Below are positions 11,122-40,495 of a DNA stretch of 42,639 nucleotides, one piece after another. The notes beneath the pieces were generated by a model. It searched no databases, was not told the DNA's origin, and saw nothing but the letters and a program-made list of their open reading frames with translations. Origin of the DNA: Roseovarius sp. (lineage in GTDB: Bacteria > Pseudomonadota > Alphaproteobacteria > Rhodobacterales > Rhodobacteraceae); NCBI GenBank assembly GCA_002720475.1, contig PBIL01000020.1, positions 1-42,639 on the forward strand, in the 5' to 3' direction. The first letter of the stretch is position 1. Each line of letters opens with the position of its first letter. The translations under genes and the position numbers were made by a program.

Positions 11122-11122
11122 C

Positions 11123-11899: not shown

Positions 11900-11933
11900 G
11901 TCTGTTCCTCCGCGGTTTTGTTGATAGTGCATT

Positions 11934-12365
11934 TCATGGGGCGCGGCTGCCCTCGGCCGGCGCGAGAATCCGCTTGATCACCGCGTCGCCATGCGCCAGG
12001 CGGCGACCCTCCTGGTTGAGGATCTCGCCTTGCACGAAAACCAGCTTGCGCCCGCCACCGACGAGTCGGGCGCGCGCAGTCAGCACATCGCCCTCGACCG
12101 CCGGGCCCACAAAGCTGGTCGTCAGCGACAGGGTCAGGCAGCGGTGGCCGGGCAGGCCCTCGCCCGCGAAGGCTGCGCAAAAGGTCACCGCGTTATCGAG
12201 CATGGTCGCAAAGATACCGCCATGCACTGCCTGGGAGCCGTTGAGGTGATCGCGCCTGATCGGCAGTTGCAGCTCGGCCTTGCCCTCGGACCACGAGACA
12301 AAGCGCACACCCAGCAATGCGTTGAACGGGGCGGGTATGTCTGGTCTGCCGTCCTGTGCGCTCAT
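11934..12365 (-). CDS. PaaI-family hotdog-fold thioesterase
   Basis: This 143-residue single hotdog protein has the PaaI signature (AVHGGIFATMLDNAV, about 46-60), with the HGG turn and an aspartate four to five residues later. PaaI enzymes hydrolyse stalled acyl-CoA or aryl-CoA esters and free CoA. It begins one base before the stop of the upstream TRAP permease gene and probably acts as housekeeping for dead-end intermediates of this operon. Confidence 0.87.
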   Translation of the reverse strand: MSAQDGRPDIPAPFNALLGVRFVSWSEGKAELQLPIRRDHLNGSQAVHGGIFATMLDNAVTFCAAFAGEGLPGHRCLTLSLTTSFVGPAVEGDVLTARARLVGGGRKLVFVQGEILNQEGRRLAHGDAVIKRILAPAEGSRAP

Positions 12366-12366
12366 C

Positions 12367-14334: not shown

Positions 14335-14366
14335 GCCCGTATTCCCGTTGTGTGCTGCGCTGCTTA

Positions 14367-14395
14367 TTGCACGGCGCCGCCTGGACGCCGCGCAA
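14367..14395 (-). promoter_or_regulatory. Stem-loop between TAXI binding-protein and permease genes
   Basis: TTGCACGGCG at 14367-14376 pairs with CGCCGCGCAA at 14386-14395 (ten pairs, one G-U in the minus-strand transcript) around a 9-base loop. No T-run follows. It sits in the 68-base gap between the SBP gene and the permease gene. Such intercistronic hairpins commonly protect the binding-protein mRNA or reduce permease expression. A comparable hairpin is found in the other TAXI operon at 28148. Confidence 0.6.
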
Positions 14396-14402
14396 TGCCG
14401 CA

Positions 14403-15548
14403 TCAGCGGAAAAAGACCTCGTGGCCGGCCTCTTCCAGTGCCTGAGCGCGGGCTTTCATCCATGCAGCGGCGAATTCTTCTTCACCGTCAGGTGCGTCGT
14501 CGACAAATCCGCTCCAAGCCTGGGCGAGTACATCTTGGCGCTCCACCAATTTGTCCTGGTGTGCCTGGGCCTCCGGGGTCCAAAGGCCCTTTTCCTTGAA
14601 GTAGGCCACGCTGCCATCGCTCCATGGCATCACCCAGGACAGGATCTGGCGATCAAGCGCATATGCATTGGCACCGGGGGCGGCATCCTTGTAGTCGTCA
14701 AACCCCGCGTCCATCGCGGCGACGACGTTGCGCACCTCGGTGCTATCCTGATCGGTTTCAGTGACAAGGATCGGGTAGGGGTACAGCGCCATAGACAGTG
14801 GAGAGGCAGGGTCGATGGCTGGCCCCACCGACACCATGTGCGGTGTCACGAAGGGCGTCACGCTGGTGTAGCGTTCCCATGCTTCGCTTTGGTCCGCAGG
14901 TGTTTCAAGCCATTTGAGGCCGCGCGGGCTCGATTCGATCTGGTAGTTCACAGTGGTTGTCGTCAGAGCAAAGGCCGCATCCACGCGATCTTCGAGAATG
15001 CCCTTGAGAGAGTTCACATAGCCCGAAAACTCCACTGTCTCCACGTCGTCCCATGTCAGGTCCCCAAAGGCCAGCAGACCCTCCATGTTGTTGACAATGG
15101 CGGGAGAACTGGCGGCGCGGGCGACCCGTTTTCCCTTGAGATCTGCGATCGTGTCGATGCCGGCATCGGCGGCAACAGCGACGCCCAGACCGTAGTCGCC
15201 AACTGCCTGAAGAACGGCCCGGATCGGCTGTGGCCCCCATTCAGGCGAGGCAAAAAGGAACACACCTTCAGCCGCGAAATAGGAGGCGATGCCGCATAGG
15301 CAGTAATCGACCGTCCCGTTCTTGAGAGGCGTCATCCGGGAGACATCGTTTCGTCCCGGAAGCACGCGGACTGTCGATCCGTATTTGCTACGCATCATGT
15401 TGCCGATGGCGATGGAATGCGCATGGCCGGCGGATCCCGTGTCATAGGCTGACCACGCGATCACGTCAGGCAGATCGATGTCTTGTGCGTTGGCCGACGT
15501 GGCAATCGCCAGACATGCAGCAGCGATACCTGTTGTCTTGAAAGTCAT
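14403..15548 (-). CDS. TAXI-family TRAP solute-binding protein
   Basis: This 381-residue protein starts at ATG 15548 behind GGAGGAG and has a signal peptide ending ANA (cleavage near residue 22). The mature protein shows TAXI-type features: AYDTGSAGHAHSIAIGNMM at the start, a D-YCLCG segment, IADLKGKRVARAASS near 158-172 and a C-terminal ATPG-like region. It delivers a carboxylated substrate to the fused permease encoded downstream. At about 359 mature residues it is somewhat longer than many TAXI proteins (about 300), with an extra charged C-terminal helix region. Ligand unknown. Confidence 0.88.
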   Translation of the reverse strand: MTFKTTGIAAACLAIATSANAQDIDLPDVIAWSAYDTGSAGHAHSIAIGNMMRSKYGSTVRVLPGRNDVSRMTPLKNGTVDYCLCGIASYFAAEGVFLFASPEWGPQPIRAVLQAVGDYGLGVAVAADAGIDTIADLKGKRVARAASSPAIVNNMEGLLAFGDLTWDDVETVEFSGYVNSLKGILEDRVDAAFALTTTTVNYQIESSPRGLKWLETPADQSEAWERYTSVTPFVTPHMVSVGPAIDPASPLSMALYPYPILVTETDQDSTEVRNVVAAMDAGFDDYKDAAPGANAYALDRQILSWVMPWSDGSVAYFKEKGLWTPEAQAHQDKLVERQDVLAQAWSGFVDDAPDGEEEFAAAWMKARAQALEEAGHEVFFR

Positions 15549-15597
15549 GATTTTCTCCTCCTTGTTGGTCTTTGTTCCCGGCCATCGCGTTTTCAGA

Positions 15598-16824
15598 TCA
15601 AAGCTCTGAAAACGCGACATCCTTGTCTACGCGTATTTCGGGCGGCAGCCCGAGAATGCGTTCTCCGATGATCGTGCGCTGGATCTCGTCCGTTCCCCCG
15701 GCGATCCGGTTACCCGGCGCGGTCAGGTATTCGTTGCGCCAGCGCGCCACGTCATCTCCTGTTTTGGCTGAAATACCCGCCGCGGTTCCCGCCAGTTCCA
15801 TCCCGAAAGCGCCCATTTCTTGCCGCAGCTTGCCCAGCAGCAGCTTGCCGATCGAGCCCTCTTCGCCCGGCGCTTCGCCGCGCGACAGCGATGTCATGAC
15901 CCGGTAGGACGTGAATTCGAGTCCGCGTTGCCGCGCGATGAAATCGGCAATGCGCGCGCGCACTTCGCCGTCCTCGATAGCCGGGCGGCCGTTCCGTTCG
16001 ACACGGGCGGCCAGCCCGATCAATTCCTCGGCCCGCGCACCCCCACTGGCGCGGCCAACGGAAATACTGAACCGTTCATTCATAAGTGTGGTCAGCGCTA
16101 CCTTCCACCCTTCGGATTCGCCGCCCAAACGGGCGCTGTCTGGCACCCGCAGGTTGTCAATGAACACTTCGTTGAAGCTGGCGCTGCCCGAAATCTGGCG
16201 AATAGGACGGGTTTCGATGGCCGGGTCGGACATGTCCACAAGGAACATGGTCATTCCCTTGTGCTTGGGTACCTGCGGATCGGTACGCGCCAGCAGGATG
16301 CCATGGGTGGAATAATGCGCCCCCGAAGTCCAGACTTTCTGACCGGAAATCACCCACTCGTCGCCTTCGCGGCGCGCGCGAGTGCGAATACCGGCCAAAT
16401 CGGACCCGGCCGCGGGTTCGGAAAACAGCTGGCACCAGATGTCTTCGCCAGTCAGGGCACGGGGCAGAACTGTGTTTTTCTGGGCATCCGTGCCATGCAT
16501 CATGACCGTAGGCCCGACTAGCCCGATTCCGATCAGAAAGACGTTGGGCGGCACGGCGTAGCGCCCTTCCTCCTGATTCCAGATCACCTGCTCGATCGGA
16601 GTGGCGTCACGGCCGCCGAAAGCGCGGGGCCATGTCAGTCCGGCCCAGCCTGCGTCGGCTTTTCGCGCCTGCCAGTCGCGCGCACGGGCAACTTCGTCGG
16701 CGTCTCGGGCCATGAAATGGTCCTGTGTCTTTTCGCTGCCATCGCGGCGGGTTGCGTTGGCATCAAGCCAGTCGCGCGCTTTTGCGCGGAACGCGGCTTC
16801 TTCCGGGCTGTCGCTGAAATCCAT
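15598..16824 (-). CDS. Acyl-CoA dehydrogenase, alpha-type subunit (catalytic)
   Basis: This 408-residue acyl-CoA dehydrogenase is of the large FadE class used in steroid and branched acyl-CoA oxidation. Markers are FSEPAAGSDLA at 134-144, KVWTSGAH at 163-170, the putative base Glu250 in LMNERFS and the C-terminal IAGGTDEIQRTIIGERILGL. The start at 16824 follows AAGGACA; a longer frame to 16911 overlaps the upstream gene. A smaller homologue without a base is encoded 16 bases upstream. Together they resemble alpha2beta2 dehydrogenases such as ChsE4-ChsE5. FAD binding is expected at the interface. Confidence 0.9.
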   Translation of the reverse strand: MDFSDSPEEAAFRAKARDWLDANATRRDGSEKTQDHFMARDADEVARARDWQARKADAGWAGLTWPRAFGGRDATPIEQVIWNQEEGRYAVPPNVFLIGIGLVGPTVMMHGTDAQKNTVLPRALTGEDIWCQLFSEPAAGSDLAGIRTRARREGDEWVISGQKVWTSGAHYSTHGILLARTDPQVPKHKGMTMFLVDMSDPAIETRPIRQISGSASFNEVFIDNLRVPDSARLGGESEGWKVALTTLMNERFSISVGRASGGARAEELIGLAARVERNGRPAIEDGEVRARIADFIARQRGLEFTSYRVMTSLSRGEAPGEEGSIGKLLLGKLRQEMGAFGMELAGTAAGISAKTGDDVARWRNEYLTAPGNRIAGGTDEIQRTIIGERILGLPPEIRVDKDVAFSEL

Positions 16825-16840
16825 CTGTCCAGTGTCCTTG

Positions 16841-17953
16841 TCAGTTACTGGCCAAGGGGCCGTTCGCCAGATCGCAAAGCAGCCGCTCGCGCCATAGATC
16901 GGCCGGGCCAAGTTCGGCCTTCAACTGCCAGCCGCGCCGCAGAAACAAATGCGGATCGGCGGCCCAGGTAAATCCGATCCCACCGTGAAGCTGCACCGAT
17001 TCCTCGGTGGTGAATTGCACTGCATCAAGTGCCGTGAGACGCGCCACCGCGGCCGCTTCGGCCAGCCGATTATCTTTGCTCGCCAGCGCCCAGGCACCAA
17101 AAAAGGCGTTGGATCGCGCCAGTTCGATCTTGGCGAACATGTCCGCAAGCCGGTGCTTAACTGCCTGAAAACTGCCGATCTGACGCCCGAATGCCCGCCG
17201 CTCGCAGGCATAGGCTTTGGTCATGGAAAGCGCGCGCTCGGCCAGACCAATCTGTTCGAAGGCCGCCAGCACCGCAGCGCCGTCCAGAAGGGTCCGGATC
17301 GCCGCGGGATCGGAACCGGGTAGCAATTCGACCGGAGTGTTGTGAAAGACGATCTCGGCCGCCGGGCGTGTGCAGTCGATCGCGTCCAGCGCGTTGATCG
17401 ACACTGACGGGTCGGACAGATCCACGAGATAGAGGCGCGGGGTGCCGCCTGCGTCCATGGCAGCGACCAGCGCAAATGACGCATCGGCTGCGAACGAAAC
17501 CGGCGATTTCCGTCCTGAAAGGCGATCCTGCACCACCTTTGCCGACACTCTTTCCGGTGCCAACCCTCCATCCTCGGCTAGCGCGGCGGCGACGATCATG
17601 CGGCCTTCGGCGATTCCGGACAGTAGCTCTTCCTTTTGGCTTTGCGTCCCCATGTCCTGAATCGCCGGGGTCGCCAAGCCAAGCACGGGGGCGAAGGGTA
17701 CGGCGGCCAGGCTGCGGCCGATCTCTTCGGCGAGAATGGCCAGTTCGACCGCCCCCATGGCCGAGCCTCCGGCCTCTTCGTCAATCGCAAGGCCCAGCCA
17801 TCCGCCGTCCGCCAACGCGGCCCATGTTGCGGTGTCGAACCCTTCGGCTGTATCGAGACAGTCATGCGCCACCGCGAGAGTAGCGTGATCGCTCAGCATT
17901 CGTGCCAGCGTGCCGCGTATGGCATCCTGCTCGTCGGAAAAACCGAAGTTCAT
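16841..17953 (-). CDS. Acyl-CoA dehydrogenase, beta-type (probably non-catalytic) subunit
   Basis: This 370-residue acyl-CoA dehydrogenase homologue begins MNFGFSDEQDAIRG behind GAAGGAGGT. It lacks the usual SEPxAGS flavin loop (corresponding region AALAEDGGLAPE), the ER base (region AAFEQIGLAERAL) and the C-terminal GGT-EI-RN motif, ending instead in HGGIGFTWAADPHLFLRR. This matches beta subunits of heteromeric FadE enzymes. It is the first gene of the minus-strand operon and is paired with the alpha-type gene downstream. The CACATATGTG palindrome lies 102 bases upstream of its start. Confidence 0.88.
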   Translation of the reverse strand: MNFGFSDEQDAIRGTLARMLSDHATLAVAHDCLDTAEGFDTATWAALADGGWLGLAIDEEAGGSAMGAVELAILAEEIGRSLAAVPFAPVLGLATPAIQDMGTQSQKEELLSGIAEGRMIVAAALAEDGGLAPERVSAKVVQDRLSGRKSPVSFAADASFALVAAMDAGGTPRLYLVDLSDPSVSINALDAIDCTRPAAEIVFHNTPVELLPGSDPAAIRTLLDGAAVLAAFEQIGLAERALSMTKAYACERRAFGRQIGSFQAVKHRLADMFAKIELARSNAFFGAWALASKDNRLAEAAAVARLTALDAVQFTTEESVQLHGGIGFTWAADPHLFLRRGWQLKAELGPADLWRERLLCDLANGPLASN

Positions 17954-18261
17954 GCTGACCTCCTTCGGATCATGGGCATAGGGCGCCCATCCAGGCAAGG
18001 GTAGTTACGCGTTCGGTCAGTCCCAAACGCTATCGGGCACTTGCCGCGCGAAACCACATATGTGCAATAGTGCCGGAACAGTGGCCGATGGACCGCAGGA
18101 TGTGATTCATCAAGAATGTGCTCAATCGACGTGAAAGCCGCAAAAACGAGCCGGTCAATTGATTGCTGCTGCGCTTGCCGCCTAACCTGAAGAACCCGGG
18201 GCTATTACAGGTATGGTCGAGCCCTCTCTGAACATGGAACCGAACAAGGGAATCGTACGAA
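17954..18261. promoter_or_regulatory. Divergent intergenic region with palindromic operator
   Basis: This 308-base region separates the acyl-CoA dehydrogenase operon (minus) from the MaoC-IclR genes (plus). It holds the CACATATGTG palindrome at 18055-18064. Apart from that I see no open frame with a ribosome site and no clear sigma-70 promoter. It is AT-richer around 18100-18170, where promoters for the plus strand may lie. Confidence 0.55.
18055..18064. promoter_or_regulatory. CACATATGTG palindrome, candidate operator (site 1 of 3)
   Basis: This perfect 10-base palindrome lies in the divergent region 102 bases from the minus-strand start at 17953 and about 198 bases from the plus-strand start at 18262. 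The same ten bases occur at 23345 and 25256, also intergenic. An IclR regulator gene lies in the plus-strand transcription unit at 18780, so autoregulation and co-regulation are plausible but unproven. Confidence 0.6.
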
Positions 18262-18744
18262 ATGGAAACTGTAGGGCTCGGATTTTGCTATGAAGATTTG
18301 CCCGTGGGACGCAGGTTTCGGACCATTGGCCGTACCGTGACCGAAAGCGACATCACGAATTTTGTCAGCGTCACCGGCATGCTTGAGGTTCTGTTCATCA
18401 ATAGTGACTTCCGGGAAAAGGAATCCGATATTCCCGGTTTTGCCGCTCCGGGTGCGCTGGTCTATACCTTCATGGAAGGGCTGTTGACCCAGTCCACAAT
18501 GCAACACACAGGCTTTGCCTTTCTGGACATGGAACTCAAGGTCATGGGGCCCACGTTCGCCGGGGACACCATCCATTGCGAGGTCGAGGTAACAGAATCG
18601 CGCCGTTCGAAGAGTCGGCCGGACCGTGGATTGGTGCGGACACGAAACAAGGTGTTCAAGCAAACTGGAGAGCAGGTATTGGAGTATACGCCGTTGCGGA
18701 TGATCAAGGCACGCACGATGGATACTGAGCCGGGAGAGACGTAG
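18262..18744 (+). CDS. MaoC-like hotdog protein with degenerate hydratase site
   Basis: This 160-residue MaoC/hydratase-2 fold protein has the N-terminal FCYEDLPVGRRF and a central APGALVYTFMEGLL helix. In active R-specific hydratases the catalytic Asp and His lie in a GDxNPxH-like loop; here the loop is TGMLEVLFIN (38-47), with Met40 and Phe45 at the positions that are Asn36 and His41 in the paralogue at 33065. It may be a structural partner in a heteromeric hydratase (as ChsH1/ChsH2 in steroid degradation), or a thioesterase-like protein. It precedes the IclR gene by 35 bases in the same direction. Confidence 0.8.
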   Translation: METVGLGFCYEDLPVGRRFRTIGRTVTESDITNFVSVTGMLEVLFINSDFREKESDIPGFAAPGALVYTFMEGLLTQSTMQHTGFAFLDMELKVMGPTFAGDTIHCEVEVTESRRSKSRPDRGLVRTRNKVFKQTGEQVLEYTPLRMIKARTMDTEPGET

Positions 18745-18779
18745 GTCTGTTTCGGACAGCGGCGCTGGAGACGTTGATT

Positions 18780-19598
18780 ATGAAAACCGCGCAATCTGAC
18801 CGAACTGAAGCCGCCGGACCTACATCGGGTGGCCCCCGGTCTCTGACGCGTATTCTTGCCCTCTTCGATATGTTGGCGTACAGCGAACGGCACATGTCTC
18901 TCTCGGAACTCAGCAACGCAATTGATTGCCCTAAGAGCAGTTTGCTGGTGTTGCTTCGCCCTCTCACCGAGAAGGGGTACCTGGTGCGCGAGGAAGACAA
19001 TTATTTTCTGGGCCCGAGGATTTTCCAGTTCGCCCAGTCGATCCTGACCAACCACCCGTTCGAATCGGTCCTGCGCGGGGTGATGAGCGATATGGTCAAC
19101 CAGACCGGAGAAACCATCCTGTTCGCTGTCCGGGATGGCGAAAATGTCGTTTATTCGTCGGTCGTCGAAAGCCCCCAGCCCGTCCGGTACGTCGCCCAGA
19201 AGGGGATCAACCGGCCATTGTTTTGTTCGGCATCGGGACTGGTCATGCTGGCCTTTGACACGCAGCAGGAACTCGACGATTACTTCCGGCGCACCGAATT
19301 GAAGCCCCTTACTCCCAATTCGATCACCGACGAAAATGAACTGCGGGGGATAATCTCGGAGATTCGCAAATCCGGGTATGCCAGCACGACTGGAACGGCG
19401 CATGTCGATGCTGCGGGTTTCGGGGTTCCGGTCTTTCGTGCCGACGGACACTTGGCAGGGGCCTTGGTGATTGGTGCTCCCTTGGAACGCGCCAAACGAA
19501 ACAGAAATCGGTATGTGGCCGCAGCCAAAACGGGGGCCGAACGGCTTTCCAGAGCACTAGGCTATCTTTCGGGCCTTGAGAAAACCGCCCTGCACTAG
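18780..19598 (+). CDS. IclR-family transcriptional regulator
   Basis: This 272-residue regulator has an N-terminal winged helix (roughly 20-85; SLTRILALFDMLA, then MSLSELSNAIDCPKSSLLVLLRPL as helix-turn-helix and GYLVREEDNYFLG as wing). A C-terminal GAF-like effector domain follows (about 100-265) with FCSASGLVMLAF and an AAGFGVPVF-DGHLAGALVIG segment. IclR proteins bind short palindromes and respond to small acids. GGAG lies about 9 bases before ATG 18780. Its location next to site 18055 makes it the leading candidate regulator for the CACATATGTG sites. Confidence 0.92.
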   Translation: MKTAQSDRTEAAGPTSGGPRSLTRILALFDMLAYSERHMSLSELSNAIDCPKSSLLVLLRPLTEKGYLVREEDNYFLGPRIFQFAQSILTNHPFESVLRGVMSDMVNQTGETILFAVRDGENVVYSSVVESPQPVRYVAQKGINRPLFCSASGLVMLAFDTQQELDDYFRRTELKPLTPNSITDENELRGIISEIRKSGYASTTGTAHVDAAGFGVPVFRADGHLAGALVIGAPLERAKRNRNRYVAAAKTGAERLSRALGYLSGLEKTALH

Positions 19599-19606
19599 GC
19601 GCATGC

Positions 19607-19639
19607 AGCCCGCCCCTGTTTTCTTACTGCAGGCGGGCT
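19607..19639. terminator. Weak inverted repeat between convergent genes
   Basis: AGCCCGCC at 19607-19614 pairs with GGCGGGCT at 19632-19639 around a 17-base loop containing a T-rich stretch. It fills the 40-base gap between the IclR gene and the convergent acyl-CoA dehydrogenase gene. The long loop and absence of a T-tail make it a weak terminator candidate. Confidence 0.4.
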
Positions 19640-20787
19640 CATCTCAGTCCCAGCCCTCGCGCAATGATACCGCGAAGAATTTCGCGGGTGCCCCCGCGGA
19701 GCGAAAACGACGGTACCGCAAGTTCGGTATAGGCCAGAACAGCCGCATAGCTGTCGCGCCCACCAGGCACCGCCGGGCGAGTGACAAGACTGCGGGCCAA
19801 GCGCGGAATGTCCTGCTCAAAGAGCGCGCCCAGATCCTTGACGATGGCGGCTTGCAGTGATGGATTCTTTCCCTCGTTCAGCATTCCGGCCACCGACCGT
19901 GACATCTGTCGCAGCACCATCAGATGCGCGGACAGACGGCCAATCTCGGCCTGTTGCGCTTCGGTTGCGTCCTCGCGCAGCAATCGGATCAGTTCCTCGA
20001 TCAGGGCAAAGGACGACAGGAACCGCTCCGGGCCGCTGCGCTCGAAGGCCAGTTCGCTCATGACCTGTGACCAGCCCTCGCCCTTCTCGCCCAGCAGCGC
20101 ATCGGATGGCAGAAAGGTATTGTCGAACACGACCTGGTTGAAATGATGCTCGCCACCCAGGTCGATGATCGGGCTGATCTGAATGTTGTCGGTGGCCTTG
20201 AGATCGACCAGGAACTGACTCATCCCGCCGTGGCGGTCGTCGCTCTTGCCGGTGCGGCAGAACAGGATCATGTAATCGGCGACATGCGCATAGGTTGTCC
20301 AGACCTTGGTGCCATTGATCCGGAACCCCCCTTCGACCTCGGTGGCGACGGTACGCGTGGCCGCAAGGTCCGAGCCGGAATCCGGTTCGCTCATCCCGAT
20401 GCAGAAACACAGCTCGCCCGCGGCGATGCGCGGTACGATCCGACGTTTCTGATCATCGGTGCCCTTGGCAAGTATCAGCGGGCCGCTCTGTCGATCGGCG
20501 ATCCAGTGCGAAATCACCGGCGCACCGGCGGCCAGCAGCTCTTCGGACACGACATAGCGCTCCAACGCGCTGCGCGCGTGGCCGCCGTATTCCTTGGGAA
20601 AGGTCATGCCGACCCAGCCGCGCTGTGCCAGCTTTCGTGAAAAGTCACGGCTGAACCCATTCCACGACTCTGCGCGTTTTTCGGGCGGGAAATCGGCCAG
20701 CTCTTTGGCCAGGAACGCGCGGACCTCTTGCCTGAGGTCGTCATAGTCGGTGCCGGGCGGTGGTGGCGGAAACGCGGTGAGGGTCAC
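19639..20787 (-). CDS. Acyl-CoA dehydrogenase, alpha-type subunit (second pair)
   Basis: This 382-residue acyl-CoA dehydrogenase has the flavin loop MSEPDSGSDLAATR at 132-145, KVWTTYAHVADY at 161-172, a putative base Glu249 in LAFERSGPER, and the C-terminal SLRGGTREILRGIIARGLGL. It starts at GTG 20787 overlapping the stop of the upstream gene (GTGA), so translation is coupled. Upstream lies a base-less beta-type homologue, giving a second likely heteromeric FadE enzyme in this window. Last gene of the MmgE/PrpD operon. Confidence 0.9.
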   Translation of the reverse strand: MTLTAFPPPPPGTDYDDLRQEVRAFLAKELADFPPEKRAESWNGFSRDFSRKLAQRGWVGMTFPKEYGGHARSALERYVVSEELLAAGAPVISHWIADRQSGPLILAKGTDDQKRRIVPRIAAGELCFCIGMSEPDSGSDLAATRTVATEVEGGFRINGTKVWTTYAHVADYMILFCRTGKSDDRHGGMSQFLVDLKATDNIQISPIIDLGGEHHFNQVVFDNTFLPSDALLGEKGEGWSQVMSELAFERSGPERFLSSFALIEELIRLLREDATEAQQAEIGRLSAHLMVLRQMSRSVAGMLNEGKNPSLQAAIVKDLGALFEQDIPRLARSLVTRPAVPGGRDSYAAVLAYTELAVPSFSLRGGTREILRGIIARGLGLR

Positions 20788-21842
20788 GCTCGGGCCCCTT
20801 GTGCAGTGCTGTCGGTGATGAAATGCCAGAAGGTGTCGTGGGGATTCGACAGGGCGAACCGCCCCAATTTCCTGGTCCAGTCAAGCTCGGTGCCGAACTC
20901 GTCGCGCCAACTCCAGATCCGCTTGGTGAAATGGTGAAGCGAATGTTCCTGGGTATAACCGATAGCCCCATGAATCTGGTGGGCCAATGCCCCGACCTTC
21001 TCTGCGGCTTCTCCGGCGCGAATCTTGGCTGCGGCAACGGTCAGGGCAAAGGCTGGTGTGTCATAGCTGCCTGCTGCCATCTCGGCGGCAGTGCGCGAGG
21101 CGGCGGTTTCTCCGGCCATGGTCGCCAGATTGTGCTGGATCGCCTGAAACTTGCCAATTGGCCGCCCGAATTGCACCCGGTCGTTGGCGTACTGAACGCT
21201 CATCTCCAGGATGGTCTCCATCGCGCCGGCGGTGGCCAGACTGCGCACAAGCGCACCGAGCCCGCGCATCCCGCCGATAGGCCGAGCCAAGGGGGCGACA
21301 TCGGCCTCTGTCAGGGCAAGATCGACCTCGGCATCGTCGCGTGGCATCCCGGCGAGATCCTGCGCCGGGTCCACGGTCAGCTCCTTCACCGGCAAAGACA
21401 GGACGTGATCATCGCCGCCCAGCACGGCGATGGTCACGATCCGGTCTGCCCAGCGGGCAAAGGGCACCAGCGTCAGATGCCCCCTCGCATGGATCGTCGC
21501 GCCGCGCCGCTCCAGCCGCAGCGCCTCTCCCTCGGCGATGGTCAGCCGGCCGCCGGGCAGGGGCAGATCCGCGCGCGCCAGCATCGCGTTCGCGATCAGG
21601 GTTTCAGCCAGTGGCAGGGGCAGGCCATGCGCACCGGCGATGCGCACGAGCCCGAGCGCCTCGGCGGGGGGTACGCCGAAACCGCCTGCAGCCTCGGGCA
21701 CCAGCGCCATGGCCAACCCGGCTTCCTCGATCCGCGTCCAGAGAGCCTCCGGGCGTTGCCCGGAGGCGGCGGCGGCGCGCAGGCGGTGGGTGACATGATC
21801 GCGCAACAGTCGCTCGGCCATGTCATGGATCATCGATTCCAT
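20784..21842 (-). CDS. Acyl-CoA dehydrogenase, beta-type subunit (second pair)
   Basis: This 352-residue acyl-CoA dehydrogenase homologue is reduced in the first domain (residues 1-100 rich in Ala/Leu, PEAAGGFGVPPAEA) and has no SEPxAGS loop. The C-terminal domain is recognisable (VQYANDRVQFGRPIGKFQA, then HQIHGAIGYTQEHSLHHFTKR), but without the GGT-EI-RN motif or ER base. This is the beta pattern of heteromeric FadE enzymes. Its ATG shares one base with the MmgE/PrpD stop (TGATG), and its end overlaps the alpha gene. Confidence 0.87.
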   Translation of the reverse strand: MESMIHDMAERLLRDHVTHRLRAAAASGQRPEALWTRIEEAGLAMALVPEAAGGFGVPPAEALGLVRIAGAHGLPLPLAETLIANAMLARADLPLPGGRLTIAEGEALRLERRGATIHARGHLTLVPFARWADRIVTIAVLGGDDHVLSLPVKELTVDPAQDLAGMPRDDAEVDLALTEADVAPLARPIGGMRGLGALVRSLATAGAMETILEMSVQYANDRVQFGRPIGKFQAIQHNLATMAGETAASRTAAEMAAGSYDTPAFALTVAAAKIRAGEAAEKVGALAHQIHGAIGYTQEHSLHHFTKRIWSWRDEFGTELDWTRKLGRFALSNPHDTFWHFITDSTAQGARA

Positions 21843-23272
21843 CAGATGGTCCTTTCAGGCGGTGATGGATCGGCGGCTGACGTGCTGTGCTCTGGTTTGT
21901 CCTGACGCACATAGGCTGACTGCCCGCTGGGGGCCATCGACTCTCGCAGCGGCGGCAGATGCAGCCGCGTGCGCAGATCCTGACGGAACGCCTTGGTAGC
22001 GGGCGGCACACCCCCGTCCCTGCGGTATTTCCCGAGACAATCGGCAATCTTGTCCCGGATCGCGGCAGGTGTCGCCGGATCCGAGGGCGAACCGGGGTGC
22101 GCCGCGACCGAGGTTTCGGCCAGGGTTACGTTCCCCTTGCGCAGGCGAACATGGACCGCGCCATGGTCCACGCCGACTCGAACCTGCCCCGCGTCCGGTA
22201 TGGTTCGGATGCTCACCATGTCCATGAGTCGGCGAACTGCGGGACGATGCGGATTATTGCCTTCGAAATCAGCGAGTCCGACCTGGCCTTGGTGCAGGGC
22301 CACGGCGAGGGTATAAGCGGCGCAGAACTTGGCTTGCGTTCCATCTTTGGGATCGGTGACATGCAACGGGACCATGACGCTTTTGGGCACCGTCATTTCG
22401 ATCACTGACCCTTCGGGCACCGCGTCGCCGCCGCGTTCGGCGTAAAGATGCCGCCCTGCGGCGATCATCCTGTGCGTGAGGTAGCAGCAGGGATACAGCT
22501 TACGGGACACAGTGCCCAGGTCGATCCGCGGCTCCACCTCCGCGGGGTCGGCCGCAAGCCCGTCTGGGCCGGCATAAAGATCGAAGAAGCCGCGCGCCGC
22601 AAAAATATCAGGAGCGCCTGTGATGTCCGCCTCGGCCATCCGGGCGGCACGCAGTCCGACAAGGGCGGCGTTGCCGGCCTGGATCGGTTTCGCCATGGTG
22701 CCGAAATTGATCTGCAACCCCCCGGCCAGCGACGCGGCCAGGGACAGGGCGTTGCGTATCGCGTCGTCGTCGAGGCCAAGCTGATGCGCAACCGCCGCCG
22801 CCGACGCCAGGGCCCCGATCGTCGATGTTGCGTGCCAGCCCGTGTCGTAGTGACCAAAACCCAGGATCTGACCGAGCGCGACATTGACGGCTGTTCCTAC
22901 CGCAAGCGCGGGGGCGATGCGGCTGGCCGTGTCCGGCCGTACATCCGCAATGGCCAGCAGCGCGGGCACGATTGCGACACTGGGATGGGTGACGCTGATC
23001 GTGTGGACATCGTCGAAATCGAGCGCATGACCGGCGACCGCGTTGAGGAACGCGGCCTGTTCGGGATCGCCGCCCTCGGCGGCTCCCGCCGGTACTGTCG
23101 GCCCGCCCTTGTCGAGCGCCGCCAGTCGGCGAACCATCGGTTCGTGCCACCCGCCATAGATGACGGCCACGGTATCCTCCACGCAAAGCGCAGCCTGCTC
23201 GGCGTCTGCATCGCCCAGCAGGTGCGGCGCGCCGACGAACCGCGACAAACGGGTAGTGAAATCGCTGATCAT
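21842..23272 (-). CDS. MmgE/PrpD family protein
   Basis: This 476-residue protein is of the family containing 2-methylcitrate dehydratase, cis-aconitate decarboxylase and iminodisuccinate epimerase. The large helical domain is recognisable from FLNAVAGHALDFDDVH (about 75-90), HPSVAIVPALLA (96-107) and GWHATSTIGALASAAAVAHQLG (143-164), and a lid domain follows with LYPCCYLTHRM. Members dehydrate, isomerise or decarboxylate di- and tricarboxylates; which reaction occurs here cannot be told. The C-terminal tail of about 40 residues is hydrophilic. It is the first gene of the operon with a dehydrogenase pair and lies 73 bases from the palindrome at 23345. Confidence 0.87.
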   Translation of the reverse strand: MISDFTTRLSRFVGAPHLLGDADAEQAALCVEDTVAVIYGGWHEPMVRRLAALDKGGPTVPAGAAEGGDPEQAAFLNAVAGHALDFDDVHTISVTHPSVAIVPALLAIADVRPDTASRIAPALAVGTAVNVALGQILGFGHYDTGWHATSTIGALASAAAVAHQLGLDDDAIRNALSLAASLAGGLQINFGTMAKPIQAGNAALVGLRAARMAEADITGAPDIFAARGFFDLYAGPDGLAADPAEVEPRIDLGTVSRKLYPCCYLTHRMIAAGRHLYAERGGDAVPEGSVIEMTVPKSVMVPLHVTDPKDGTQAKFCAAYTLAVALHQGQVGLADFEGNNPHRPAVRRLMDMVSIRTIPDAGQVRVGVDHGAVHVRLRKGNVTLAETSVAAHPGSPSDPATPAAIRDKIADCLGKYRRDGGVPPATKAFRQDLRTRLHLPPLRESMAPSGQSAYVRQDKPEHSTSAADPSPPERTI

Positions 23273-23786
23273 CGTTTTCCTTTACTGACACTGTACATTG
23301 CCTCACGAAGGAAGGTGCTATCAACTCTCGGTGCCACTCTTTCGCACATATGTGTTGGAGTAGGATGCTCGCGTTGTGATCCTTGCGGCCGTTGGGCATT
23401 CTGGATGTGCATCCTTCATCCGTGTCCGTGCTGGATCGGGGTTGGAGGTGACCGGTAAAGCTTCGGAAAGAAGGGCAAACGTGGCTGAGGGTGTCGGCGT
23501 GAAAGGTCGAGAAGACAAGCATGCGAGTGCGGAGAGACCGTTCGAGGCACCGTTGTGTCATTGTCGGCAAGACGATATATCCTCGGAGACCCGGAAGCGC
23601 GGCGGTGGGCTCCGCCGGGAATTCGGCCTTGCCATCCCCGCGCTGACACGATGAGCGCTTTGCGTGTCCCTGCTTGTGAAGGTGAAATAGTCGACATCGC
23701 ATTTTCGCCGTCGTGCCCTGAGCGACCGCATCCGCCGTTGCCTCGCAGACATGACATAACGGACGCCTTCGGAAGACTGGAGGCAG
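23273..23786. promoter_or_regulatory. 514-base divergent intergenic region
   Basis: This is the longest stretch without a convincing gene. It separates the MmgE/PrpD operon (minus) from the membrane-protein gene (plus) and contains the CACATATGTG palindrome at 23345. Small frames in it (for example 23376-23654) have no recognisable family and no good ribosome site. TTTACTGACACTGTACATTG near 23280-23300 is AT-richer and may hold minus-strand promoter elements. The remaining 350 bases could contain a long leader or gene relic. Confidence 0.5.
23345..23354. promoter_or_regulatory. CACATATGTG palindrome, candidate operator (site 2 of 3)
   Basis: This perfect palindrome lies 73 bases upstream of the MmgE/PrpD start on the minus strand and about 430 bases before the plus-strand gene at 23787. 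Together with the ten following bases it matches site 3 (25256) in 17 of 20 positions, so the similarity extends beyond the core. Confidence 0.6.
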
Positions 23787-25214
23787 ATGTCGTCCATTAA
23801 GTCCCTGAAACGTTCCGGCACGCGCAACCGGATTACTGCCGTCTGTCTGCTGTGTTGTCTCGGCGCTGCCATCGTGCAGGGTGTCTTCTTCTCCAGCGTC
23901 GCGTCCATCGCGGCCGTGCCGTTCTTCGGCATCTATCTTGCTATTGCGTCCTGCTACATCGCCCGCGTCGGATGGGTGCTGCTTTTCTTCTCCCTCGCGA
24001 TTGCCCTTGTGGCGCTGGCCGATGGTATTGAAACCGGCGTCTTCGTCGAAGCGGCGGGGCGTGTCGTGTTTCTGTCCGCGCTGCTGACGGCTGTCGCATT
24101 CCTGCGCATCGCGGCCACCCAGGACCCGGTTGTGGAGGTTGCCGGTGAATTCCTGACGCTGCAGCCGCCGACCCGCCGCTATGCCTCTCTGGGTGCGGGT
24201 GGGCATCTGTTCGGTGTGCTTTTGAACCTCGGCGGGCTTGGTGTGATGCTCGAGATCATCATGAAAGGGCTGGCGGCGCATCGGCATGAAATGGACGAAT
24301 TCGTGTTCAAGGCCCGCAAGCGAAGGATGGTCAGCGCCTGTATGCGGGGGTTTTCCTCGATCGCTTTCTGGACGCCGTTCGGGATCGCTCTCAATCTGAT
24401 GATCCTCACGATTCCGGGGCTCGAATGGGCGACTCTGGCCCCCTACGGGATTGCGCTGGCCGGGGTGCTGTTCCTTCTGGGATGGCTGTTCGACACGGTG
24501 GAATGGTGGCGCCCGCCCTCGTCGCGCGGCCGGGCACCGGCCCTGACCGGAGACTTGCCGGGCTGGAGCCGTTGGGCCGTCTTGATCGTGTCCGGACATG
24601 TCCTTTTTCTGGGAACCGCCGTGGTGACGCTGGACAGGGTGACCCAGTACAGTTTTCAGACCGTGCTGATCACCATCGTTCCGATTTATGCGCTGCTCTG
24701 GTCGGCTCTGCGCCGCGGCAGTGGCAGCGTTACCGATATGTCGCGCCAGTTCGTGACCCAGGCACCGGGTTTCGCGAACGAGATGAGCGTCATCGCGTCG
24801 GCGGGGTTCATCGGTCTTGTTGCACTGGAAATCGCCCCGGTTGAATGGATTGCCGCCCACCTCGGCTGGATTGCCGCGCGGCCGGTCACGACGGTTGTGC
24901 TGTTGATCATGACGGTGTTCCTGACGGGGCTGCTGGGCGTGCACCCGATGATCTCGGTGGTCCTGCTGGCAGAAGTGGTCAAACGCGTCGGCGTGGATGG
25001 TTTGTCTCCGCTTGCTCTGGGCCTTGCGCTGGCTGGCGGCTGGAGCAGCATCATCTGCATGGGGCCGGCCATCACGGCTGTCGTTTATGCCTCCTCCATC
25101 GTGGGAGAGCGGCCGCTGACCATCGGCTTGCGTTGGAACGGGATTTTCGGCATTGCGAGCATCCTCCTCATCACTCTCATCGTTGGCGGCGGTGTCGCGA
25201 CAGGGTTGTTCTGA
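23787..25214 (+). CDS. Polytopic membrane protein of unrecognised family, possible transporter
   Basis: This 475-residue protein has about 11-12 hydrophobic segments starting near residue 18, and a short basic N-terminus (KSLKRSGTRNR) that favours an inside orientation. A cytoplasmic basic loop lies near 185-193 (FKARKRRM). The second half holds GLLGVHPMISVVLLAEVV and GWSSIICMGPAITAVVYASS, re-entrant-like segments reminiscent of ion-transporter (IT) superfamily permeases. I do not recognise a specific family. ATG 23787 follows CTGGAGG. It stands alone or heads the region that continues with the CoA-transferase genes after a 152-base gap, so export or import of a pathway acid is possible. Confidence 0.7.
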   Translation: MSSIKSLKRSGTRNRITAVCLLCCLGAAIVQGVFFSSVASIAAVPFFGIYLAIASCYIARVGWVLLFFSLAIALVALADGIETGVFVEAAGRVVFLSALLTAVAFLRIAATQDPVVEVAGEFLTLQPPTRRYASLGAGGHLFGVLLNLGGLGVMLEIIMKGLAAHRHEMDEFVFKARKRRMVSACMRGFSSIAFWTPFGIALNLMILTIPGLEWATLAPYGIALAGVLFLLGWLFDTVEWWRPPSSRGRAPALTGDLPGWSRWAVLIVSGHVLFLGTAVVTLDRVTQYSFQTVLITIVPIYALLWSALRRGSGSVTDMSRQFVTQAPGFANEMSVIASAGFIGLVALEIAPVEWIAAHLGWIAARPVTTVVLLIMTVFLTGLLGVHPMISVVLLAEVVKRVGVDGLSPLALGLALAGGWSSIICMGPAITAVVYASSIVGERPLTIGLRWNGIFGIASILLITLIVGGGVATGLF

Positions 25215-25255
25215 CCGGTCTCAATTCCCTTTCAGGACCCGGGCGCAAGCATTCC

Positions 25256-25265
25256 CACATATGTG
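25256..25265. promoter_or_regulatory. CACATATGTG palindrome, candidate operator (site 3 of 3)
   Basis: This perfect palindrome lies in the 152-base gap upstream of the CoA-transferase-like genes, about 102 bases before GTG 25367, the same distance as site 1 from its minus-strand gene. The flanking TTCGATCAGG resembles TTGGAGTAGG at site 2. It implies a separate promoter for the 25367-30130 operon. Confidence 0.6.
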
Positions 25266-25366
25266 TTCGATCAGGCTTTGCGCCAGCCGGAAGGTGCAGG
25301 ATTGAGTACCGTTAACTAGGATGGGCCTGTGCAAATTTTCAGTGATCTGCAGAAAAAAGTATCGGA

Positions 25367-26320
25367 GTGGCAAGCCAAACGATGGAAGGCCAAACAAAAC
25401 CCACACGTCGCAGCAAGGTCACAAGCCTGCAAGACGCAGCACTTCTGGCACGAGGCGCTTTGGAAGAACGCCCCGAGCTTTGCCTCGGCGGTCTTTTCAA
25501 GCAAAGCCGCCCGGTCGCGCTGGTGCGCGCGTTGCTGGCCACGGGCGCGGATGGCCTGCATGTGTATTCCTCGCCGGGCGCGGGGTATGACATCGACCTG
25601 ATGATCGCGTCAGGGGCCGTCGAGCAGGTCTTCATTCCCGGCGTTACGCTAGAGAACCGTCTTTGCCCCAATTTCCGCCGCGCAGTCGAGGCAGGGCAGG
25701 TGACCGCCCACGCGCTGGATGCGCTGACCGTGGTGGGCGGGCTGATGGCGGCGGCACATGGTGTGCCGTTCCAGCCAGTCGACGCGCTGCGCGGATCAGA
25801 CGTTCTGAAATACAACCCGCTCTTGCGCGAAATCGACTGCCCATTTTCCGGTCGCCGCATTCACGCCGTCGGACCGATCCGGCCCAGTGTTACGTTTTTG
25901 CACGCGCAGGAAGCCGACCGTTGGGGGAACCTGCGCCATCTCAGTACGATGGTCTATGCCGATCAGCTGATGGCGCGCGCGTCTGACATGGTCATTGCCA
26001 GCGTGGACAGGATCGTGCCGGACGAGGTCGTTCTGGACGATCCTTCGCGGGTCACCGTGCCGTCTCATTATGTCGATGCCGTGGTCGAAGTGCCCTACGG
26101 AGCGCATCCTACGGCAAGCTTTCCCAACTATGCGATGGACGAGAAACATATCGATGCCTACGCCGACCTGGGCGACGCCGCCCGGACCGGCGACCGCAAA
26201 GGGCTGGATGCTTATATCACGCGCCATGTGACCGGACCGAAAAGCCAGGGGGACTACATCGAAGCGGTCGGGGGAGCCAGGCATTTCGCCTGGCTCGAAG
26301 CGGAGGCACGGAACAGATGA
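25367..26320 (+). CDS. Class I CoA-transferase-like protein, alpha subunit (IpdA/GctA-like)
   Basis: This 317-residue protein has the NagB/RpiA-like fold of CoA-transferase A subunits: GGLFKQSRPVALVRALLA at 41-58, SSPGAGYDIDLMIASGAV at 68-85 and LENRLCPNFRRAVEAG at 95-110. The family includes glutaconate CoA-transferase and IpdAB, the steroid C/D-ring opening hydrolase of mycobacteria. Glu96 is in the region where IpdA carries its essential glutamate, but this alignment is from memory. The start is uncertain: GTG 25367 or ATG 25382, neither with a strong ribosome site. The beta-subunit gene overlaps by four bases. Confidence 0.82.
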   Translation: MASQTMEGQTKPTRRSKVTSLQDAALLARGALEERPELCLGGLFKQSRPVALVRALLATGADGLHVYSSPGAGYDIDLMIASGAVEQVFIPGVTLENRLCPNFRRAVEAGQVTAHALDALTVVGGLMAAAHGVPFQPVDALRGSDVLKYNPLLREIDCPFSGRRIHAVGPIRPSVTFLHAQEADRWGNLRHLSTMVYADQLMARASDMVIASVDRIVPDEVVLDDPSRVTVPSHYVDAVVEVPYGAHPTASFPNYAMDEKHIDAYADLGDAARTGDRKGLDAYITRHVTGPKSQGDYIEAVGGARHFAWLEAEARNR

Positions 26321-27084
26321 GTGCGGCGGTTTCCCCACTTGAGCAGATGGTCGTCGTGCTGGCCCGCGACCTGGCCGACGGCGAACTGGGCGCGGCGGGC
26401 GCTGCTGCGTTAGTGCCGATGGCGGCAATCGCGCTGGCCCGCGAATTGCATGCACCGAACCTGACGGTCGGCGGCGAGATGTTCTTCAACCCCGAGCCGG
26501 GGCGTCTGTATCCGTCAATGCTGGACGATCGTGCCCTTGGCCGCTGCGAGGCCGCCGAGACCTTCATCGAGTTGTTCGGCCACAGCCATCACGGGCTGGA
26601 TTTTTTCTTTCACAGCGGCTTGCAACACGATGTTTATGGCAACATCAACCTGCACCACGTCGGCGGCACACTGCACGCGCCAAAGATGCGCGGGCCGGGG
26701 GCGGCAAACCTGTCCTACTGCCACACCTCGACGCGGTTCTACATCTGCCCCACGGCGCATACGGCGCGCAATTTCGTGGAGAAAGTCGACTTTGTCACCA
26801 TACCGGGGCACCTGTCGGGGCCCGAGGCAAAGCGGGCCGCCGGCCTGACCAACGAAGGCCCGCGGCTTGTGGTGACGCCGCGCGCGGTTCTGGATTTCGA
26901 CCCGACGACGCTGCGGATGCGGCTGAAATCGGTCCATGAGGGCAATACGCCTGAAGACGTCCAGCGGCACACCGGGTTCGATCTGGCGATCAGTGGCGAC
27001 GTGCCGCAGACTTGGCCGCCAACGGAGGAGGAGCTGCGCGTTCTGCGACAGCGGATCGACACGTCGGGGACCCTGCGCGCTTAA
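26317..27084 (+). CDS. Class I CoA-transferase-like protein, beta subunit (IpdB/GctB-like)
   Basis: This 255-residue partner of the preceding subunit is translationally coupled (ATGA overlap). Classical beta subunits carry the catalytic glutamate in an SENG motif. Here the corresponding stretch appears to be VGGEMFFNPEPG (51-62), with Glu54 but none of the usual neighbours, so the enzyme may be a ring-opening hydrolase (IpdAB-type) or a divergent CoA-transferase. FVEKVDFVTIPGHLSG (about 154-169) and RLVVTPRAVLDFD (188-200) are shared with the family. The TAXI binding-protein gene follows after 43 bases. Confidence 0.82.
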   Translation: MSAAVSPLEQMVVVLARDLADGELGAAGAAALVPMAAIALARELHAPNLTVGGEMFFNPEPGRLYPSMLDDRALGRCEAAETFIELFGHSHHGLDFFFHSGLQHDVYGNINLHHVGGTLHAPKMRGPGAANLSYCHTSTRFYICPTAHTARNFVEKVDFVTIPGHLSGPEAKRAAGLTNEGPRLVVTPRAVLDFDPTTLRMRLKSVHEGNTPEDVQRHTGFDLAISGDVPQTWPPTEEELRVLRQRIDTSGTLRA

Positions 27085-27127
27085 GCGGCCGGGCCCCAGA
27101 ACCTTTGAACAAAAATGGGAGGATAAA

Positions 27128-28099
27128 ATGTTCAAACGCAAGTTGACCGGATACCGGGCCGCGCTCAGTGCCGTGGCGGCCGTGGGTGCCATGGCCCTTG
27201 GCGGCGCGGCGTCCGCCAAGGATCTCACGATGGGCACGACCAGCCCGACATCGAGCCACTTCACCATCTCGGTCGCGATGAGCAAGGCGATCGAGAAGGG
27301 CATGGAAGACACCAATGTCAGCGTGATCGAGACGGGTGCCAGCGTGGACAATGTCCTGCGTCTGGCGCGCGACGAAATAGACCTTGGTCTTGCCACCACC
27401 GACATCCTGATTTCGGCCAGGAACGGAACCGGCAAGTTCGAAGGCAACCCCATCCCCGATACGGTTGCGCTTTATCCCTATAGCGCCTCGATCCTGCTGA
27501 TCGCCGTAACCGAGGAGTCGGGCGTGACCTCGCTCGAAGAGCTGGACGGGAAGAAGTTCAATCCCGGCATCCGGGGATCGGCCGCCGAAACGCTGACGAC
27601 CAACGTTCTGTCGATGTTCGACATCAACGCCGACCTGGTGCATGGTGCCGTCGGTGACGCGGTGGAAGGCATCAAGAACCGCCAGATCATCGGCTACAGC
27701 AAATACGGGGCTGCGGACTCTGTCGATGCAAGCCTGCAAGAGTTGATGACCAGCACCAAGATGCGCTTGATCGGCTTCACCGAAAAGCAGGAGAAAGCGG
27801 CGAAAGAGGCTATGGAGGGCGTCGCTTTCACGACCCTTCCCGCAGGGCTTATTCCCGGCTCCGAAGCGATGCGGGTGCCCAAGCTCAACGTTTTCTTCCT
27901 GACCCGCACCGGCGTCATGGATGACCAGACCGCCTATGACATCGCCCGCAGCATCCACCAGAACATGAATCTGCTGGCCGAAGCCTGGCCGCAACTGGCC
28001 GGTTACGACATCGCCGCCGATGCCGTCGCGACGATGGAGGCGGGCGTCACCTATCATCCGGGTGCGGCGCGTTACTGGAGAGAGGCGACCGGAAGCTGA
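27128..28099 (+). CDS. TAXI-family TRAP solute-binding protein (second TAXI system)
   Basis: This 323-residue protein starts at ATG 27128 behind GGGAGGAT. A signal peptide (KRKLTGYRAALSAVAAVGAM...ASA) is cleaved near residue 30. The mature protein begins DLTMGTTSPTSSHFTISVAMSKAI, a typical TAXI opening, with IDLGLATTDI, LEELDGKKFNPGIRGSA and the C-terminal AEAWPQLAGYD and YHPGAARYWRE segments. Size is normal for TAXI proteins. It feeds the fused permease encoded 88 bases downstream. Only limited similarity to the TAXI protein at 14403 is visible, so different ligands are likely. Confidence 0.9.
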   Translation: MFKRKLTGYRAALSAVAAVGAMALGGAASAKDLTMGTTSPTSSHFTISVAMSKAIEKGMEDTNVSVIETGASVDNVLRLARDEIDLGLATTDILISARNGTGKFEGNPIPDTVALYPYSASILLIAVTEESGVTSLEELDGKKFNPGIRGSAAETLTTNVLSMFDINADLVHGAVGDAVEGIKNRQIIGYSKYGAADSVDASLQELMTSTKMRLIGFTEKQEKAAKEAMEGVAFTTLPAGLIPGSEAMRVPKLNVFFLTRTGVMDDQTAYDIARSIHQNMNLLAEAWPQLAGYDIAADAVATMEAGVTYHPGAARYWREATGS

Positions 28100-28147
28100 C
28101 CTGCTTCGCGGCCAATCAGGACGGACGGCCGCGCGGGCTTGACCGGG

Positions 28148-28170
28148 GCGGGGTGCTGCGGGCACCCCGC
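28148..28170 (+). promoter_or_regulatory. Perfect stem-loop between TAXI binding-protein and permease genes
   Basis: GCGGGGTGC at 28148-28156 pairs perfectly with GCACCCCGC at 28162-28170 around a 5-base loop. There is no T-run, and the ribosome site of the permease (GGGAGC) begins 8 bases after it. It probably stabilises the binding-protein transcript or dampens permease expression. It parallels the hairpin at 14367-14395 in the other TAXI operon. Confidence 0.65.
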
Positions 28171-28186
28171 CGTTATGGGAGCGAAC

Positions 28187-40449: not shown

Positions 40450-40495
40450 CCTATGCCGAACGCTGTTCATATAATTGCACGCGGGGGAGGGGATC

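Follow-up and report, generated by a model that had tools for sequence, protein, structure and literature searches.

Regulators of the IclR family and their palindromic operators are well known. The stretch of DNA analysed here (the window) is the whole contig C20, 42,639 nucleotides in length, of a metagenome-assembled genome (MAG) of the genus Roseovarius; it carries three exact copies of the ten-base palindrome CACATATGTG in front of presumed catabolic operons and encodes two proteins of this family, IclR1 and IclR2. The closest described counterparts are the group 2 operators of Suvorova and Gelfand (2021, PMC8222616), given in the available excerpts of their survey as TGRAACA-N1-2-TGTTYCA. 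The same excerpts report tandem IclR sites 18-22 nt apart (94 orthologous groups) and a correlation of leucine at helix position 35 with G/C at operator positions 13/25, and name AtoDA-type CoA transferases, DctPQM transporters, COG1545 and COG2030 as co-regulated sets (PMC8222616). Like the group 2 operators, CACATATGTG is a perfect, intergenic palindrome, and its core ACA-N2-TGT (C-ACA-TA-TGT-G) agrees with the group 2 core ACA-N1-2-TGT. Unlike them, it has TGTG in place of TGTT, the YCA is not kept and the flanks differ among the three sites. COG1545 and COG2030 are presumably OB-fold and MaoC proteins.

IclR1 and IclR2 both matched Pfam PF09339 and PF01614 above cut-off, which gives an IclR winged helix-turn-helix followed by a C-terminal effector domain. 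The best NCBIfam model for both was TIGR02431 (PcaR/PcaU/PobR), at 126.9 bits for IclR1 and 85.5 bits for IclR2, far under the cut-off of 284.75. Operators of PcaR, PcaU and PobR are of the GTTCGAT type according to Table 1 of the excerpted survey (PMC8222616); no inverted GTTCGAT pair was present around sites 1-3, where a single GTTCGAT lies to the right of site 3. BhcR of Paracoccus denitrificans, in the available part of its description (PMC11323563), is another IclR-type regulator of an alphaproteobacterium; there too the promoter region is divergent, and activation of a catabolic cluster by the protein has been demonstrated. It belongs to another pathway, and IclR1 and IclR2 reached 111.2 and 64.6 bits against the cut-off of 350 of its model NF045644. 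The predicted fold of IclR1, the only one of the two that was modelled, matches 1mkm, PcaR (8eju) and TtgV (2xrn); its mean pLDDT of 67.9 was too low for pocket or DNA contacts. A literature search that included the motif strings as text yielded no such regulon among the matches listed. The CACATATGTG regulon is apparently undescribed and of a kind, the IclR regulons, that is already known.

The three copies at 18055, 23345 and 25256 (sites 1, 2 and 3, each in front of the presumed operon of the same number; Table 1) are almost certainly real operators, i.e. predicted docking sites of a gene-switch protein. They had been reported by a model working from the letters of the window (the sequence-only reading), and the three exact copies were confirmed. 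Dinucleotide shuffling left a mean of 0.00 copies (100 shuffles). Sixty genomes of the genus, 232.8 Mb in total, contain 104 copies; at this density a stretch of 42.6 kb should have 0.019, and the probability of three or more is 1.1e-6, in line with the claim that less than one copy would occur by chance. As also claimed, none of the three lies in a gene, even though our own gene list makes 94% of the window coding; they are 102, 73 and 102 bases from the starts at 17953, 23272 and 25367, and sites 2 and 3 share 17 of 20 bases when extended rightward. A near miss described for 8832 exists as CCCATATGTG, at position 8833.

The motif is not common genome-wide, a finding which would have counted against a regulon. 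The MAG assembly scanned (2,680,812 bases, 24 contigs, 73.8% complete) holds four copies, three of them inside the window, and none of the reversed control pattern. The Roseovarius genome G006 (4.6 Mb) also holds four, and all of these are on one 55.8-kb contig, clustering in the genus having been assessed among the matches listed; one of the four is inside a MaoC-type open reading frame (ORF). The fourth MAG copy (C1:24784), near the start of a PAS-domain ORF and facing a YicC gene, has no catabolic context and was regarded as background. Exact copies at G006:C26:6285 (L013:3286) and G015:C103:130186 (L019:10187) were rejected as regulon members because they are inside a 285-aa ORF. This ORF, MaoC-type by Pfam (L013), sits in a neighbouring acyl-CoA dehydrogenase cluster common to the two Roseovarius genomes.

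The catabolic island that carries the sites was found in 25 further roseobacter loci, from hosts including Pseudooceanicola, Salipiger, Sulfitobacter and Sedimentitalea, with IclR1 relatives that are 73-89% identical. Within the genus, an IclR1 ortholog of at least 73% identity is present in 5 of 84 genomes (that of the window included), plus one fragment. Island DNA is matched by 29 plasmid records, 26 of them over at least 80%; examples are pMaD1 of Marinovum algicola and pRIdsm_01 of Roseovarius indicus. Some of the 25 loci are near-identical to one another, and two (L091 and L093) are from one strain. The site 1 region is present in 24 loci, with the palindrome exact in 22 and CACATACGTG in two (L082, L089); sites 2 and 3 are each exact in 22 of the 22 loci that have the region. 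As for the remaining loci, L087 and L092 are without operons 2 and 3 in the fetched stretch, L091 ends before site 1, and L093 ends before sites 2 and 3.

Comparison of the orthologous intergenic regions, suggested as a check by the sequence-only reading, bore the motif out, with the palindrome kept and the flanks drifting. Among the distinct sequences (17, 16 and 15 at sites 1, 2 and 3, window included) the core has a mean identity of 0.99, 1.00 and 1.00, the median pairwise identity outside it is 0.60-0.68, and the core ranks first, or close to the top, in conservation among the ten-column stretches. The flank TTCGATCA of site 3 is nearly invariant too among the orthologous loci. The sites go or stay with the operons, since rearrangements in five loci separate genes from sites. 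L087 (UBA6141) and L092 (MAG-85) keep IclR1, operon 1 and site 1, and mmgE, the CoA-transferase genes and sites 2 and 3 were not seen there. In L083 and L084 the permease gene that separates sites 2 and 3 is unmatched, yet both sites are kept, and L088 has no mmgE match, yet keeps site 2, now before acdF. A gene was called absent in these loci when tblastn on the fetched stretch gave no match that covered 40% of the query. An exception is G103, in which site 3 is kept and site 2 reads CATATATGTG. In G527, from another genus, IclR1 is 44-46% and IclR2 60% identical, and an exact palindrome stands before acdD, with iclR2 between iclR1 and this palindrome. A further CACATGTGTG of G527, before a CoA-transferase gene (L127:8949), looks coding by eye and was not counted. 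The proposal of a cis-regulatory motif that defines a small dedicated regulon, with catabolic operons downstream, is supported.

Sequence comparison points to IclR2 rather than IclR1 as the more likely binder of CACATATGTG, with a probability of roughly 0.62. The IclR protein at 18780 (IclR1) had been put forward in the sequence-only reading, and in this respect the reading was not upheld: exact sites accompany IclR2-clade genes without an IclR1-clade gene, while the reverse was not seen. An IclR gene does adjoin site 1 in so far as iclR1 is part of the divergent maoC-iclR1 pair, but it is the second gene of the pair and about 715 bases away. In G060, an IclR gene closer to IclR2 (118 bits) than to IclR1 (69 bits) is immediately preceded by two exact copies of CACATATGTG in tandem, 21 bp apart; IclR1 was lowered to a rival for this reason. 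On the Sulfitobacter pontiacus plasmid unnamed04, CACATATGTA and CACATATGTG stand in tandem, again 21 bp apart, directly upstream of an IclR2-clade gene. In both cases the spacing of the farther copy in the divergent direction, with TTG at 38-39 and TAnnnT at 62-63, matches that of site 1 (offsets are counted throughout from the first base of the palindrome toward the operon). The tandem spacing is 21 bp in these two loci, against 18-22 nt in the survey, and 42 bp in L239; the window sites are single. The L239 pair consists of two exact copies in G245 (L239:5527 and L239:5569), 42 bases apart and intergenic by the ORF rule given below, about 4 kb from an IclR2-clade gene.

The survey of stretches around homolog genes, mostly 20 kb long, gave exact intergenic sites in 5 of 24 IclR2-clade stretches (G060, G149, Variovorax SRS16, S. 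pontiacus plasmid unnamed04 and G245) versus none of 18 IclR1-clade stretches. With up to one mismatch allowed the counts were 10/24 versus 2/18, and the reversed control gave intergenic sites in 0/45 stretches. Eight exact sites (one inside an ORF) were present in 454 kb of IclR2-clade stretches versus 0.20 expected, and 313 kb of IclR1-clade stretches held none, intergenic or genic, versus 0.14 expected. Each of the 42 one-clade stretches has one IclR-like gene (E 1e-4), scoring higher with the query of its own clade. Exact sites are also present in all three stretches that encode both regulators (G527, Pontibrevibacter and Rhizobium gallicum). Sites were taken as intergenic when outside our own longest ORFs, except for the first 60 bases of these; this rule left out CATATATGTG of L213, 17 bases before the matched part of a gene, and L220:2683, intergenic by record annotation. 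The IclR2-clade sample comprised 16 of 23 other loci of the first homolog set, 3 of 3 new loci and 5 of 8 more distant single-regulator records, and the IclR1-clade sample 11 of 29 other fetched loci, 5 of 7 distant single-regulator records and two second-best hits. No exact site was found in the 3-kb stretches of the unused loci (7 IclR2-clade, 18 IclR1-clade). In a first test, restricted to 300 bases upstream with up to two mismatches, sites were found at 7 of 23 IclR2-clade loci (shuffled mean 1.7; 0 of 500 shuffles reached the site count) and at 6 of 29 IclR1-clade loci (shuffled mean 2.5, P 0.068).

Regarding promoter geometry, site 1 is followed by TTG at 37-39 and TAnnnT at 60-62 in all 17 distinct sequences, with varying letters between them. 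At site 3, TAnnnT is at 61 in each of the 15 distinct sequences, with no TTG at the -35 position; at site 2, 15 of the 16 carry a TTG at 30. The acdD palindrome of G527 has TTG at 37 and TAnnnT at 62. At sites 1 and 3 the centre of the palindrome would be near -68 of a start placed 7 bases past the -10 box, and because of this position the arrangement would suit an activator better than a blocking repressor. For the maoC-iclR1 promoter, TTGAT and TAnnnT are conserved in 17 of 17 distinct sequences. A near-palindrome, ATTCATCAAGAAT, is found at 18105-18117, upstream of this promoter and some 50 bases away from site 1; each of the 17 distinct acdD/maoC regions has a similar form of it, and several relatives have the perfect ATTCATCATGAAT. 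It is perhaps a second operator, possibly of IclR1.

In the mechanism that we infer, which covers binder, oligomer state, activation, operon structure and ligand, an IclR-family regulator would take CACATATGTG as its operator and control the three presumed operons of an island for the catabolism of CoA thioesters, most likely by activation. It would bind as a dimer (as a tetramer where two sites are 21 bp apart), centred near -68 and upstream of the -35 box, and would recruit RNA polymerase once a compound of the pathway is bound. Through site 1, in the divergent region, the maoC-iclR1 pair may be affected as well. The regulator would more likely be IclR2 than IclR1. More broadly, and only tentatively, a clade of IclR activators with the helix PxSS(T/A/S)(S/A) may recognise (TT)CACATATGTG(AA) across alpha- and betaproteobacteria, the -35 box being at about 38 and the -10 box at 61-63 in several cases; in roseobacters, IclR2 might then control three operons 15-22 kb away together with the region of a second IclR gene, in a circuit that travels on plasmids with the pathway. 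The results provide a complete and testable regulon set, comprising an operator, predicted promoters, two candidate regulators and three presumed operons; the island concerned is uncharacterised and occurs on plasmids as well as in about 25 roseobacter genomes. They also show that the most likely regulator need not be encoded by the closest gene, and that distant homologs, taken as a set, can shift the assignment to another one. If the IclR2 assignment is true, the operator could be used to find other regulons of the clade and, through them, the substrate.

Several points weigh against IclR2 as the binder and against a uniform promoter arrangement. The contrast between the clades is borderline (Fisher one-sided p 0.050 for exact sites and 0.031 with up to one mismatch), and without G060, which raised the idea, p is 0.087 and 0.047; the test is post hoc, with the question formed on part of the data, and the loci are related and hand-picked from longer hit lists. 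No exact intergenic site is present in 19 of 24 IclR2-clade stretches, and iclR2 of the window is without a CACATATGTG-type site in its own upstream region. G103 keeps site 3, and IclR2 was not found there at an E limit of 1e-15 on a contig of just 6.3 kb. IclR1 (Leu56), not IclR2 (Ser), fits the rule that ties leucine to G/C in the excerpted survey (PMC8222616), here at the operator base in which TGTG differs from TGTT, with the positions mapped by ourselves. Some IclR1-clade genes have related palindromes upstream, namely CGCATATGCG at L179 and L184 and CACGTATGTG, read toward the gene, at L199. TAnnnT (offset 59) is found at site 2 in just 4 of 16 distinct sequences, which leaves this site with no consistent -10 box, and beyond the roseobacter island just four of 13 sites show the -10 spacing in the tested directions.

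Some of these points favour the reading in which IclR1 binds all three sites and regulates the island, with IclR2 controlling other genes; on balance we consider this unlikely. IclR1 adjoins site 1 in the roseobacter loci with the region, and the reduced loci L087 and L092 keep it together with site 1, but L087 and the genome of L092 (G114) also have IclR2, so these two loci do not separate the candidates. In G527 the low identity of IclR1 contrasts with its recognition helix, PKSSLL(V/I)LLRP, which is kept along with the site, and the leucine discussed above speaks for IclR1 as well. Palindromes precede further IclR1-clade genes (CACATACGTG before L199/L217, CACTTATGTA before L171); those of L179 and L184 are centred on CATATG, but are two mismatches from CACATATGTG. 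The IclR1-clade stretches, with exact sites nowhere and one-mismatch intergenic sites in two, argue against this reading, as does L200, which has no exact site even though its recognition helix, PKSSLLVLLR, is identical to that of IclR1.

Binding of the same operator by both proteins, through overlapping specificity or in a cascade with one controlling the other, seems quite improbable. Homologs of iclR1 and iclR2 co-occur in the island, G527, Pontibrevibacter and Rhizobium gallicum, and site 1 lies in a region shared with the maoC-iclR1 promoter, but the recognition helices differ (PKSSLLVLLR in IclR1 versus PQSSTSALLK in IclR2), and the conserved ATTCATCAAGAAT could be the IclR1 site instead. 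A regulator of another family, with the IclR link being coincidental, is very improbable: a palindrome by itself names no protein, and the context is known for a minority of the other copies in the genus, but at two distant loci tandem copies (one of the four with a mismatch) lie directly upstream of IclR-family genes, at a spacing of 21 bp that is within the 18-22 nt centre spacing of IclR tandem sites in the excerpted survey (PMC8222616). Chance or a non-regulatory repeat, for which the shortness of the palindrome is the sole support, can practically be dismissed in view of the shuffling result, the genus-density probability and the conservation of the core across roseobacters.

With IclR2 kept as the preferred binder, the features of the island are collected in Table 1.

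Table 1. Predicted regulatory sites and genes of the catabolic island in the window
Feature	Coordinates	Strand	Basis
Operator site 1, CACATATGTG, between divergent acdD (-) and maoC-iclR1 (+)	18055..18064	.	exact match
Operator site 2, CACATATGTG, in front of mmgE-acdF-acdE (-)	23345..23354	.	exact match
Operator site 3, CACATATGTG, in front of CoA-transferase/TAXI-TRAP genes (+)	25256..25265	.	exact match
IclR2, IclR-family regulator, preferred candidate binder	40496..41299 (about)	+	Pfam HTH_IclR, IclR_C
IclR1, IclR-family regulator, near site 1, second candidate binder	18780..19598	+	Pfam HTH_IclR, IclR_C
MaoC-type hydratase, same strand as iclR1 and upstream of it	18262..18744	+	Pfam
acdD, acyl-CoA dehydrogenase subunit, first gene of presumed operon 1	16841..17953	-	Pfam
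Presumed operon 1, remainder	9584..16911	-	Pfam, NCBIfam
Presumed operon 2: mmgE/prpD-like, acdF, acdE	19639..23272	-	Pfam
Presumed operon 3: two CoA-transferase subunits, TAXI binding protein, fused TRAP permease	25367..30130	+	Pfam, NCBIfam, PDB sequence matches
Predicted acdD promoter: -35 TTGGGA (18026-18021), 17-bp spacer, -10 TACCCT (18003-17998)	17998..18026	-	
Predicted -10 TAGGAT of the CoA-transferase operon	25317..25322	+	TAnnnT offset 61
Predicted maoC-iclR1 promoter, TTGATT-N18-TAACCT	18159..18188	+	

The remainder of operon 1 encodes AcdC, a TAXI binding protein, a fused TRAP permease, a thioesterase, an SDR protein, an OB-fold (ChsH2-type) protein and a thiolase, and the gene order of this operon is identical in relatives. 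For AcdD the middle-domain match is absent in Pfam; its best PDB sequence match is 6wy8, and it also matches the IpdE2 model below the model cut-off. The A subunit of the CoA-transferase has 6coj and 6co6 as best PDB sequence matches, which we take to be the steroid-ring enzyme IpdAB, and the B subunit has glutaconate CoA-transferase 1poi. The matches of the two subunits and of AcdD hint at degradation of the CoA thioesters of cyclic acids. Between sites 2 and 3, a hydrophobic protein of 475 aa without Pfam or NCBIfam match is predicted at 23787-25214, and it has no match in L083 and L084. The ORF of iclR2 opens at 40475, and the ATG at about 40496 is kept in relatives according to the upstream alignment.

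On pRIdsm_01 of R. indicus, L106:7416-13327 is an annotated copy of the left part of the island, in which the acyl-CoA dehydrogenase genes are split and the DctM matches are in two pieces, as if partly decayed. The variant CATATATGTG (CACGTATGTG in G015) was found beyond iclR2 in six records from five genomes (L105:49019, L106:46814, L135:2868, L136:922, L137:2994 and L139:1313; judged by length and sequence, L106 and L136 are the same plasmid). No TAnnnT is present at the usual distance from these variant sites; in both annotated records the variant precedes a dctP gene, and GATCT is conserved on its right. This site, which is outside the contig studied here, is a candidate further member of the regulon. 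At the contig end a DDE transposase (41759-42490) adjoins iclR2, and pMaD1 likewise has transposase genes beyond iclR2.

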